Shown: positions 40,179-44,928 of the stretch, piece after piece
Position numbering within the stretch: the first letter of the stretch is position 1
Layout of the letters: each line of letters begins with the position of its first letter
Assembly: GCF_009712035.1 (NCBI RefSeq)
Contig: NZ_VILB01000001.1
Location: 1 to 64,000, forward strand
DNA: 64,000 bases
Origin: Anabaena sp. UHCC 0187
GTDB lineage: Bacteria; Cyanobacteriota; Cyanobacteriia; Cyanobacteriales; Nostocaceae
Reading direction: 5' to 3'
Position numbers and translations under genes: made by a program
The notes under the pieces: generated by a model
The model's input: only the letters and a program-made list of their open reading frames with translations
Databases searched by the model: none
What the model was told of the DNA's origin: nothing

Positions 40179-40265
40179 GAGGGTGTGGTAGTCCAGTCTA
40201 CTATTGTTTTATAGGATTGAAAGAGATTTTAGATATAATTATTGATGTTAATTAATTGTTTGCTT

Positions 40266-40682
40266 ATGCCATCTAAAGATATATTTCATGAATCTGTACG
40301 TAACGCTTTAGAAAAAGATGGTTGGATCATTACCCATGATCCACTGTATATTAAAGTTGATGATATCGAATTTTTTGTAGATTTGGGAGCAGAAAGACTA
40401 TTAGCAGCGCAAAAACAAGGTCAACAAATAGCTGTAGAAGTGAAATCTTTTGTAGGTGCATCTGAAGTAACTGAATTTCATCTTGCTTTAGGTCAAACTC
40501 TCAATTATCGGTTAGCATTAAAAAAAGAACAACCTCAACGGATTTTATATTTAGCCATTAGCGAAGACACATATCGAGATTTTTTCTCTCGTCAATTTAT
40601 CCAAGACTCTTTAAAAGAATATCAAATTAAGGTTTTAATTTTTGATTCTTTAACCCAGGAGATTGTTTTATGGAAAGAATAA
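40266..40682 (+). CDS. xisH: XisH family protein
   Basis: XisH was found as a factor needed, with XisF and XisI, for excision of the fdxN element during heterocyst development in Anabaena. The 138-residue protein has a restriction-endonuclease-like fold, consistent with the Asp in EFFVDLGAERL and the QIAVEVKSF strand seen here. I use the ATG at 40266 (MPSKDIFHE), not 40242, since the upstream residues are not part of the family. It overlaps xisI by 13 bp. No fdxN element, XisF recombinase or element boundary is visible nearby. Confidence 0.92.
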   Translation: MPSKDIFHESVRNALEKDGWIITHDPLYIKVDDIEFFVDLGAERLLAAQKQGQQIAVEVKSFVGASEVTEFHLALGQTLNYRLALKKEQPQRILYLAISEDTYRDFFSRQFIQDSLKEYQIKVLIFDSLTQEIVLWKE

Positions 40683-40999
40683 ATTACTCGCAAATTATTC
40701 AAGATATTTTAAGCAATCATTCTACCAATGATACAGCTAATGGTACAGAAATTCAGTTGCTTTTTGATACGCAACGTCATCATTATCAAGTATTAAATAT
40801 TGGTTGGAAACAACAAATCAGAACCTATGGGGTGATTATTCATGTTGATATTAAAGATGATAAAATCTGGATACAAAGAGATGGTACAGAAATTGGTATT
40901 GCTAATGAATTAATCACGGCTGGTGTCCCTAAAGAAGATATTATTTTAGGATTTCATGCTCCTTATAAGCGGCAATTTACAGGTTTTGCGGTGGGATAA
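40670..40999 (+). CDS. xisI: XisI family protein
   Basis: XisI (109 aa) is the partner of XisH. NYSQIIQDILSNHS at the start, YQVLNIGWKQQIRTYGVIIH in the middle and VPKEDIILGFHAPYKRQFTG at the end are the family blocks. Translation is coupled to xisH by a 13-bp overlap. XisH-XisI pairs are abundant in cyanobacteria without an associated excision element, so they probably have a wider role, possibly as a toxin-antitoxin-like or defence pair; that is inference. Confidence 0.93.
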   Translation: MERINYSQIIQDILSNHSTNDTANGTEIQLLFDTQRHHYQVLNIGWKQQIRTYGVIIHVDIKDDKIWIQRDGTEIGIANELITAGVPKEDIILGFHAPYKRQFTGFAVG

Positions 41000-41994: not shown

Positions 41995-42399
41995 ATGTCA
42001 GCAGAATTTCCTACACCAGACAGCTTATGGATTATTACTGAAGAAGTGGCAGAAACCTCAACGACAAGTATTAGCGGTGCTAGAAGTGGTGCTGATATAG
42101 GTGGATTATTGGGAAGTAAGACTACTGAGGAACAAATAATAGTTACTAAGGAAAAAGACAAAGTAATAATTACCAGGCGTAAAGTTGAAGTAACAAAACT
42201 CAAGCAGGAAATGAGGGGATTTATCCAAGCTATGCGAGAATGTTTGGATGAAGCCGATACTGATGATTCCAAAATCCGCTTAGATGAAGTAGAAGTTTCT
42301 GTAGAAGTCAATGGAGAAGGACAATTTAGTTTATTCGGAACAGGGGGAAAAGTAGGCGGTAAAGGTAGTCTAACTTTTAAATTCAAGCGACAATCTTAA
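41995..42399 (+). CDS. Small caspase-associated protein (Pepco-like)
   Basis: A 134-residue protein whose stop is one base before the caspase-like gene. It has a Gly/Ser-rich N-terminal third (SISGARSGADIGGLLGSK), a charged helix (VTKLKQEMRGFIQAMRECLD) and a strand-rich C-terminus (RLDEVEVSVEVNGEGQFSLF) that ends in a Gly loop. Small proteins of this look are known next to caspases and trypsins in bacterial conflict systems (Pepco/Trypco domains in the terms of Aravind and co-workers); I match it to that group from memory and position. Confidence 0.65.
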   Translation: MSAEFPTPDSLWIITEEVAETSTTSISGARSGADIGGLLGSKTTEEQIIVTKEKDKVIITRRKVEVTKLKQEMRGFIQAMRECLDEADTDDSKIRLDEVEVSVEVNGEGQFSLFGTGGKVGGKGSLTFKFKRQS

Positions 42400-42400
42400 C

Positions 42401-44818
42401 ATGGGTAAAAATTGGGCAATTAGTATCGGCATTAATCAATATGACAACCTGCAACCCCTAAACTTTGCTAAACGGGATGCAGAAGCAATGGCCGCTTGGT
42501 TTCGGGAAGAAGCGAAATTTGATCAGGTGTTTCTGTTTACAGATGACTCTCTACCCATTCCCGCTAATCCACCCATTCCCACTCAACCAACTTACGGACG
42601 GTTGCGGCGATTTTTGCAAGCACAATTTGACCAACCTCTATTAAAACCAGAAGATAATTTATGGTTCTTTTTTGCTGGACATGGTATGCGTCATGCAGAC
42701 AAAGACTATTTAATGCTTGCAGATAGTGATCCTGGTGATATTGAACATACAGCTATTTCCGTTGAATACATTACTGAAAGATTGCGTCGTAGTCGTGCTG
42801 ATAATGTAGTTTTGTTATTAGATGCCTGTCGAGAAGAAAGTAGTCGTAGTGGTTTGGGAATAGGTGAAGAGAAGCATCAAGGAGTGATTACTTTTTATTC
42901 CTGTGCTGCTAATCAAAAATCTTGGGAAATTGCCGAATTACAACATGGTTCATTTACACACACACTATTAACAGGTTTAAGGTTACATGATGAAGCTAAT
43001 TGTGCCACTGTGGAACGATTAGATAGATATTTAAATTCTTATGTTCCTCAATTAAATTCTAGCTATCAAAAGCCAATTCAAAATCCTTATCTCAAGGCAG
43101 AACCGCCATATAAAATGTATTACATTTTGTTAGAGCAATCTGCTACTCTTAAAGATGTTGAATCATTAAAATTACAGGCATCCTTATCTGAAAATGCTGG
43201 AAATTTTGAGTTGGCAAAACAAATATGGATTAGGGTTTTAGGTGTGTCTCGTGCTGATTTAGATGCAATATCGGCTCTTGAAAGAATTGCAATTAAAACA
43301 CATACTTCAACACCGGAAACAATTTCTCAGCCGATTGTTAATTTCCAATCTTCTGGTTCATCTAGAGGTGACGTTACTATATTTACACAGATAATTGAAG
43401 AAATTAAAGAAAATAATCGCAAACAAGAGGAATACCGACAGGCTGTTTTAAAACAACAGTTTCCTCTGACTAAAAAAAGTATTGATAATTTAGCTAATTT
43501 ACAAAAGTCCTTGCAACTTAGTGAAGAAGAAGTCTTAAAAATAAGACAACCGATTTTTATTCAAAAAGAAGCAGAATATCGAAAACGTCAGGAAGAAGAG
43601 AGGATTAGAAGAGAACAAGAGGCTGAAAGAACTCGTCAACAACATCAGCAAAATTTAGAGCAGTATCAACGGTCATTTTTAACAACTATTGAGAGAGAAT
43701 ATCCCCTTCGTCAAGCAAGTAAAAATAAATTAAAGAAATCACAAAATTCCTTGGGACTCAGTGAACAGGAAATATTGCACATAGAACGGCCAATTATTGC
43801 TAAGAAAGAAGCAGAATATCAAAAACTTCAGGAGGAAAATAGAAAAAGACAGGAACGATCTGTAAATTCTCCAGCGACACCACAACTAATTCTATCTTCT
43901 ATAAATCGCAGACAATTTTTAACCTATGCTGGGTTAGGAGGGACAGGTTTAGTTACTACTGTTGTATTCAGTCAGATATTTAAGGTACAACAAAAACCAC
44001 TATTAACATTTAAGTTTACAACAGTAACAACACTTGATAAGACAGGAACAAAACTGAAAAGTAACCCTAATAACGAAGCCAAATATTTTAAAGAAGATTT
44101 AGGTAATGATATTACTTTAGAAATGGTACAAATTCCGGCTGGTTCTTTTAAAATGGGTTCACCACCAGATGAAACAGGGAGACAAGAATCAGAAGGACCA
44201 CAGAGGATAGTAAATTTATCTGCCTTTTTTATGGGTAAGTTTGAAGTAACTCAGGAACAGTATCAACAAATAATGCGTAAAAATCCCTCTGGTTTTCCAG
44301 GAAAAAAACGCCCTGTAGAAAAAGTTTCTTGGTATGATGCCATAGAATTTTGTAAAAAACTAAGTCAAAAAACCGGGCGTACCTATAGATTACCCAGCGA
44401 GGCTGAATGGGAATACGCTTGTCGTGCGGGTGAAACTATGCCCTTTTATTTTGGTGAAACTATTACCACCGATTTAGTCAACTATGACGGTGACTATAAT
44501 TATGGTGATGCTCCCAAGGGAGAAAACCGAGGAGAAACTACTAATGTCGGAAGTTTTCCCCCTAATGCTTTTGGTTTGTATGATATGCACGGCAATGTGT
44601 GGGAATGGTGTCAAGACGATTGGCATGATAATTATACAAATGCGCCTAATGATGGTAGCGTATGGACAAGTCAAAGCGGCAATAGAAAGCTGCTGCGCGG
44701 TGGTTCGTGGAACGACTCTCCTGTTTTTTGCCGTTCTGCTGCTCGCAGCAACCACCACCTCGTCGTCAGCCTCAATGTTGGTTTTCGGGTTGTTTGTAGT
44801 GGTGCGGCGAGGACTTAG
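42401..44818 (+). CDS. Caspase-like protease fused to FGE domain with DGR-like variable C-terminus
   Basis: An 805-residue multi-domain protein. Residues 1-240 are a caspase (C14) domain with catalytic His 94 (FFAGHGMRH) and Cys 143 (LLLDACREES). Residues 345-399 and 422-479 are two copies of a helical repeat (LSEEEVLKIRQP and LSEQEILHIERP). A hydrophobic helix (LTYAGLGGTGLVTTVVFSQI, preceded by RR) lies at 507-526. Residues about 575-805 are a formylglycine-generating-enzyme-like (SUMF1) domain: AGSFKMGSPPDETG, RLPSEAEWEYACRAG, GNVWEWCQDDW. The last 35 residues look like the variable region of a diversity-generating retroelement. A small partner gene precedes it by one base. Confidence 0.88.
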   Translation: MGKNWAISIGINQYDNLQPLNFAKRDAEAMAAWFREEAKFDQVFLFTDDSLPIPANPPIPTQPTYGRLRRFLQAQFDQPLLKPEDNLWFFFAGHGMRHADKDYLMLADSDPGDIEHTAISVEYITERLRRSRADNVVLLLDACREESSRSGLGIGEEKHQGVITFYSCAANQKSWEIAELQHGSFTHTLLTGLRLHDEANCATVERLDRYLNSYVPQLNSSYQKPIQNPYLKAEPPYKMYYILLEQSATLKDVESLKLQASLSENAGNFELAKQIWIRVLGVSRADLDAISALERIAIKTHTSTPETISQPIVNFQSSGSSRGDVTIFTQIIEEIKENNRKQEEYRQAVLKQQFPLTKKSIDNLANLQKSLQLSEEEVLKIRQPIFIQKEAEYRKRQEEERIRREQEAERTRQQHQQNLEQYQRSFLTTIEREYPLRQASKNKLKKSQNSLGLSEQEILHIERPIIAKKEAEYQKLQEENRKRQERSVNSPATPQLILSSINRRQFLTYAGLGGTGLVTTVVFSQIFKVQQKPLLTFKFTTVTTLDKTGTKLKSNPNNEAKYFKEDLGNDITLEMVQIPAGSFKMGSPPDETGRQESEGPQRIVNLSAFFMGKFEVTQEQYQQIMRKNPSGFPGKKRPVEKVSWYDAIEFCKKLSQKTGRTYRLPSEAEWEYACRAGETMPFYFGETITTDLVNYDGDYNYGDAPKGENRGETTNVGSFPPNAFGLYDMHGNVWEWCQDDWHDNYTNAPNDGSVWTSQSGNRKLLRGGSWNDSPVFCRSAARSNHHLVVSLNVGFRVVCSGAART
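44696..44815 (+). other. Candidate DGR variable region
   Basis: The end of the caspase-FGE gene reads LRGGSWN...NVGFRVVCSGAART, the frame in which cyanobacterial FGE-type DGR targets carry their variable residues. Between CGC (44744) and AATGTTGGT (44774) the codons are AGC AAC CAC CAC CTC and then GTC GTC AGC CTC. All nine end in C and differ only in positions 1 and 2, as expected if AAC codons of a template had been mutated at adenines. AAC and GAC at 44711-44716 fit too. The invariant tail GTTGGTTTTCGGGTTGTTTG would be the initiation sequence. Confidence 0.7.
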
Positions 44819-44928
44819 TAGCCCTTTGCACTCTTGCGCTTTTGCTCTTTTCTCTTCTTTTCTTTACACTTGTAAGCGTAGTGAAACGGAGCGATCTAAA
44901 AATTTTTATTTGAAAAAGCGATTAGCTT

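Follow-up and report, generated by a model that had tools for sequence, protein, structure and literature searches.

An apparently orphaned diversity-generating retroelement target in a caspase–FGE fusion gene of Anabaena sp. UHCC 0187

Targets of diversity-generating retroelements (DGRs) that combine an orthocaspase with a C-type lectin-fold (CLec) domain were reported from cyanobacteria in 2020, and on that account the caspase link of a DGR target is not new (PMC7517822). The same survey describes remote targets as well as one that retains remnant homology: all3226 of Nostoc PCC 7120 is a target paralogue that keeps remnant template homology and has no reverse transcriptase (RT) nearby, in a genome with two DGRs elsewhere, and conserved cis-acting features are there only suggested for remote genes (PMC7517822). 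FGS domains have also been published as the DGR-varied parts of conflict systems (PMC7159879, PMC8195603, PMC10907252). BPP-1, for its part, relies on an inverted repeat directly behind the variable region (VR) (PMC3240598), a repeat elsewhere described as important and not strictly required (PMC12875486).

The gene considered here lies in a window of 64,000 nucleotides (contig NZ_VILB01000001.1, positions 1 to 64,000) and resembles these systems in most respects. As in the published orthocaspase-CLec targets, an N-terminal caspase-type domain is followed by a C-terminal CLec domain with the VR near the 3' end, and the targets are likewise dispersed in the genome; the published set, however, was defined by complete cassettes (PMC7517822), and no DGR RT, Avd or template was found here. 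It shares with all3226 the condition of a target without a neighbouring RT, but differs in that no DGR was found elsewhere in its genome (PMC7517822). As described for the VMAP / MoxR-vWA ternary systems, an FGS (FGE) domain is joined to a peptidase from a proposed conflict system (PMC7159879, PMC10907252); unlike in those systems, the neighbouring gene is Pepco, and the eight nearby ORFs examined (37.7 to 48.7 kb) included no MoxR or vWA gene, being assigned to XisH, XisI, PIN, no family, DUF2887, phycobilisome, RNA methyltransferase and AIR-synthase (PurL-type). The XisH-XisI pair lies at 40242-40999, near the Pepco and caspase genes. Judged from sequence, the locus would represent an unusual state of an otherwise known kind of target, one whose machine was not found.

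Table 1. Features of the caspase–FGE locus (positions in the window).
Feature	Position	Strand	Basis or remark
Pepco gene (PF24393); partner gene upstream of the caspase	41995..42399	+	Pfam E 5.5e-31
Caspase-FGE fusion gene, 805 aa, DGR target protein	42401..44818	+	Pfam domains
FGE / C-type lectin-fold domain bearing the VR	44111..44815	+	
DGR variable region (VR)	44690..44811	+	3' end GCGGCGAG common to VR and template (IMH-like)
Core run, nine codons ending in C	44747..44773	+	
Post-stop pyrimidine-rich element	44819..44873	+	conserved behind VR-type targets

Within the fusion protein, residues 4-232 match Peptidase_C14 (E 1.7e-19; PADLOC caspase match E 3.5e-15) and residues 574-798 match FGE-sulfatase (E 4.5e-59). 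The caspase domain carries the motifs AGHG at residue 92 and DACR at residue 141, which would hold the putative catalytic His and Cys; a sequence search of this part against solved structures returned no match. A Pepco-like gene stands directly upstream of the orthologues in Cuspidothrix (L100), D. circinale (L105), A. flos-aquae (L111), FACHB-1091 (L142) and Fischerella PCC 9431 (L143), and in the last of these it is Pepco by Pfam. The Fischerella locus (L143:1640-8938) places this Pepco and caspase-FGE orthologue, together with a second, divergently transcribed caspase-FGE gene, within a DGR cassette with one DGR RT, a template and an Avd-like gene, the last assigned by resemblance.

The sequence-only reading had drawn attention to nine codons in a row (AGC AAC CAC CAC CTC GTC GTC AGC CTC) between the conserved blocks LRGGSW and NVGFRVVC, and the run is present as described. 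In three coding stretches of the window (1816 codons), among them the pre-FGE part of the caspase-FGE gene, only 14.7% of codons end in C, which puts the chance of nine consecutive ones at a given site at about 3e-8; the longest run in these stretches is four codons. Counted from 44744 the run reaches ten codons, the longest in a six-frame scan of the 64 kb. The same scan returned eight other C-ending runs of 7-9 codons each, however, and the codon run is therefore only suggestive, and by itself weak evidence for a DGR.

The case for a VR instead stems from a template comparison. A different genome of the genus (G002:C66, matching Dolichospermum sp. ST_sed8) carries, at L089:7041, a template repeat that follows a gene for a 364-aa DGR RT and a bAvd gene. 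Relative to this repeat the window's VR, aligned with one codon gap (the window has one AAC codon fewer), is changed at 18/31 A positions and at 2/89 non-A positions (p = 2.8e-11); by template base the changes are A 18/31, C 1/28, G 0/30 and T 1/31. Changed template-A positions also occur beyond the nine-codon run, at 44714-44742 and at 44777. One of the two non-A differences is an internal T to G at 44741, in the codon GCT (44741-44743), where the Fischerella template has AAT; the other, at 44812, is the first base past the shared 3' end, VR and template being identical through GCGGCGAG at 44811 and divergent from there on. Both other templates tried as the source fitted less well, with 10/88 (Fischerella) and 21/80 (L092) non-A changes. 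Across 36 aligned FGE domains (37 picked, one excluded for a stop codon), mean entropy was 2.87 bits at the 17 codons with a template A in position 1 or 2, and 0.40 bits at the other 21 VR codons. On these sequence comparisons the stretch 44690-44811 is a DGR variable region, and the proposal that the FGE-fold domain of this caspase-linked protein carries one is thereby upheld. Among the DGR loci compared, those of G002 alone carried the matching template.

Other FGE paralogues of the UHCC 0187 genome were compared with the L089 template as well, giving p = 1e-4 (L212), 0.026 (L214), 0.025 (L216) and 0.06 (L213). Two have VR-like ends: L212 (G000:C1:43056-43730), changed at 14/29 A and 10/85 non-A positions and followed by the post-stop element discussed below, and L214 (G000:C11:102143-102823), changed at 15/32 A and 21/85 non-A positions and without that element.

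A search for the machine gave a consistently negative result. The assembly is 99.99% complete, a draft of 57 contigs, and an RVT_1 search of it returned six RTs, five of which scored best with TIGR04416, the group II intron RT/maturase family (289-295 bits, cut-off 300), the sixth being RT_UG19; the best identity of the genome's RTs to a DGR RT was 24-31%. Family and protein searches of this draft thus returned no DGR RT, the best Avd match had an E-value of 0.48, and a DNA search for the template repeat returned only VRs and short chance matches. The UG19-class RT (L006, G000:C5:436203-439871; 700 aa) is a candidate defence RT (PADLOC E 3.6e-173). A DGR RT, Avd or template was therefore found neither in the window, as had been observed before, nor in the rest of the draft genome, and the suggestion that the VR is a remote target of an RT elsewhere in the same genome finds no support in this assembly. 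The sequence-only reading had named two findings that would speak against its proposal, the absence of a template and DGR RT from the genome and identical codons in all relatives; the first is what this assembly shows, while the second does not hold, the VR codons differing strongly between orthologues.

Traces of the machine are present elsewhere in the genus. A full-length DGR RT occurs in 5 of 16 genus genomes, a set that includes this one (G002, G013, G005, G011, G004), and RT fragments occur in G007, G014 and, weakly, G008. The fragment in D. circinale (G007, L279:7702-9197) comprises 46 residues, 87% identical to the RT of CRKS33 (G011), and is flanked by a Uma2 gene and a DDE transposase; in CRKS33 the intact RT adjoins a Uma2 protein 94% identical to that of D. 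circinale. At hflX, the site of the RT in CRKS33, the genome under study has hflX itself (87%) and no match to Uma2 or the RT, so that at this place loss is indistinguishable from the cassette never having been there. Through 20 other loci, of which two share a genome and one (L108) was left out, 18 further genomes were reached; three of these have a DGR RT at E 1e-20 or better, although one of the three (G076) shows the same coordinates as G004.

We propose, with a probability of roughly 85%, that the VR was written by a DGR from a NNNPENCRSAYRNNNNLDNNNNNIGFRVVCSGAA-type template and that the cassette has since been lost, leaving the variant fixed. In this model, mutagenic retrohoming would have randomised the A positions of the VR, and subsequent loss of RT, Avd and template from the genome would have fixed the receptor variant last written. 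The FGE domain would bind a ligand through its varied surface, and the fused caspase, together with Pepco, may respond to the bound ligand with proteolysis, as part of a defence or cell-death pathway. That the cassette once resided in this genome we infer. As far as the draft shows, the VR would then be an orphaned target. Three observations sit less comfortably with this reading: the fitting template comes from another genome, with none seen in this draft; the internal T to G difference does not fit the L089 template; and three of five orthologues do not share frozen third codon positions in the VR.

The five orthologues of the fusion are those of Cuspidothrix, CRKS33 (L101), D. circinale, A. 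flos-aquae and FACHB-1091. The match to the window extends over both flanks in Cuspidothrix, from Pepco onwards in D. circinale, A. flos-aquae and FACHB-1091, and from the caspase-FGE gene onwards in CRKS33. Compared with the two that share the VR scaffold, D. circinale and FACHB-1091, the VR is identical at 36/39 and 37/39 third codon positions and at 23/39 amino acids in each case; in the FGE part upstream of the VR the corresponding identities are 63% (third positions) and 72-75% (amino acids). Cuspidothrix, CRKS33 and A. flos-aquae end in a different scaffold, and their VR third positions (26/38, 26/38 and 29/38 identical) are not frozen.

Divergence along the gene is uneven, and this raises the possibility that the FGE cassette, with its VR already written in another strain, was brought in by recombination. 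Identity with Cuspidothrix per 100 bases drops from 0.74-0.99 over 42000-43999 to 0.55-0.75 over 44000-44599, and in all five orthologues the agreement of third positions in identical codons drops from 0.89-0.91 in the caspase part to 0.65-0.68 in the FGE part. The fall in identity near 44000 is seen against Cuspidothrix and CRKS33; D. circinale and FACHB-1091 are without the linker before it. It is likely, from these comparisons, that the FGE part (44000-44818) underwent domain exchange or gene conversion relative to the caspase part. However, no near donor of the FGE part was seen among the matches listed for 60 genomes, the best separate match being 79% identical (G015), and we regard import from another strain as possible, if somewhat unlikely. 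It is compatible with an orphaned target, altering only the place of writing.

A second alternative is that diversification of the target continues, driven by a DGR that is present only at times, on a plasmid or other mobile cassette, or that is missing from the assembly, with targets outliving the machines and being rewritten by visitors. Cyanobacterial DGRs on plasmids are among those published (PMC7517822), a plasmid-borne or unassembled DGR could have escaped detection in the 57-contig draft, and the matching template, as noted above, was seen in a single genome among the DGR loci compared. The freshness of the writing was assessed with 27 SGAA-like VRs from 11 genus genomes, 19 of them in eight genomes without an RT and 8 in three genomes with one. 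At non-A sites the 19 depart from the L089 template little more than the 8 do: 55/1666 against 15/704 non-A sites are changed, and 296/596 against 121/256 A sites. Conversely, non-A third positions are changed somewhat more where the RT is missing (43/735 against 10/312), as expected after loss, and the VRs of genomes without an RT thus appear only slightly older than those of genomes with one; the window itself has 0/38 such changes relative to the L089 template, compared with 11/39 in L151, which has drifted. Between these species the caspase part shows a difference of only about 10% at third positions of identical codons, so that loss after the species split suffices for this fresh look and explains it equally well. 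We consider continued rewriting by visiting retroelements unlikely. Ordinary positive selection or codon bias acting without a retroelement, which the C-ending runs in other frames of the window might seem to favor, is extremely improbable, since chance and codon bias are rejected by the concentration of changes on template A sites and by the conservation of third positions despite amino acid changes in the two same-scaffold orthologues.

Behind the stop codon of VR-type targets in several cyanobacterial genera stands a pyrimidine-rich element that begins CCCTTTATACTCTTGCTCTTTTGCCCTCT. Its first 55 bases, which are noncoding, share 84-93% identity with those of the five Dolichospermum-group orthologues and 65% with Fischerella; for two other G002 genes the values are 85% and 72%. 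In 50 of 81 related genes, pyrimidines make up at least 80% of the 45 bases that follow the stop. In a survey of five genus genomes, 56 FGE matches gave 46 ORFs from 45 loci, 11 loci yielding no new ORF (unresolved or duplicate). By the classes of the script, a match to the element (at least 20/29 bases) followed 23/26 VR-type, 0/5 canonical FGE and 6/15 other ORFs. When seven ORFs of the 'other' class were regrouped by eye, the element was present in 29/33 ORFs with a CRSA/CRCA scaffold (the exceptions being L214, L241, L248 and L249), in 0/10 without it (5 canonical, 4 of FYQHVGFR type, and L216) and in 0/3 truncated ORFs. None of 4000 random stretches of the window matched, and the element is absent behind the G002 template repeat. 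Dividing the genes by third-base C of the variable block gave no significant separation (Fisher p = 0.14, 30 genes); it was grouping by scaffold motif that gave the division reported here. Mutual kinship of the VR-type genes could explain part of this distribution.

The position of the element invites comparison with BPP-1, where mtd, also a CLec-fold gene, likewise ends in its VR and has a 3' end common with the template and an element beyond the homology; whereas BPP-1 has an inverted repeat behind the VR, the window gene has a pyrimidine-rich stretch and no stem of at least 7 bp in 60 bases (PMC3240598). Such a stem occurred in 0/81 genes, the window's included, over the 60 bases starting 18 bases past the beginning of the GFR codons, where the mean longest stem (3.41) equals that of shuffled sequence (3.41); within 130 bases after the stop it occurred in 8/81 genes. 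A phage-type inverted repeat (hairpin or cruciform) just behind the VR thus does not appear to be a feature of these genes. Among the matches listed from the DGR literature in PMC, no description of a pyrimidine-rich post-stop element was found, and the element is possibly new to the literature. We tentatively suggest, while considering it rather doubtful, that in heterocystous cyanobacteria a pyrimidine-rich mark of about 50 bases behind the stop codon replaces the phage hairpin. By this mark any DGR of the clade, resident or mobile, would recognise dispersed receptors; caspase and kinase receptors would then remain available as targets through successive gains and losses of the mutator.

In this genome a caspase-linked receptor bears the footprint of targeted hypermutation where the mutator itself was not found. 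Should the post-stop element prove to serve in recognition, it could account for the action of a single cyanobacterial DGR on distant targets. The gene pair, existing in orphaned as well as complete form, would moreover provide a natural comparison of the role of a DGR for a suspected cell-death receptor.
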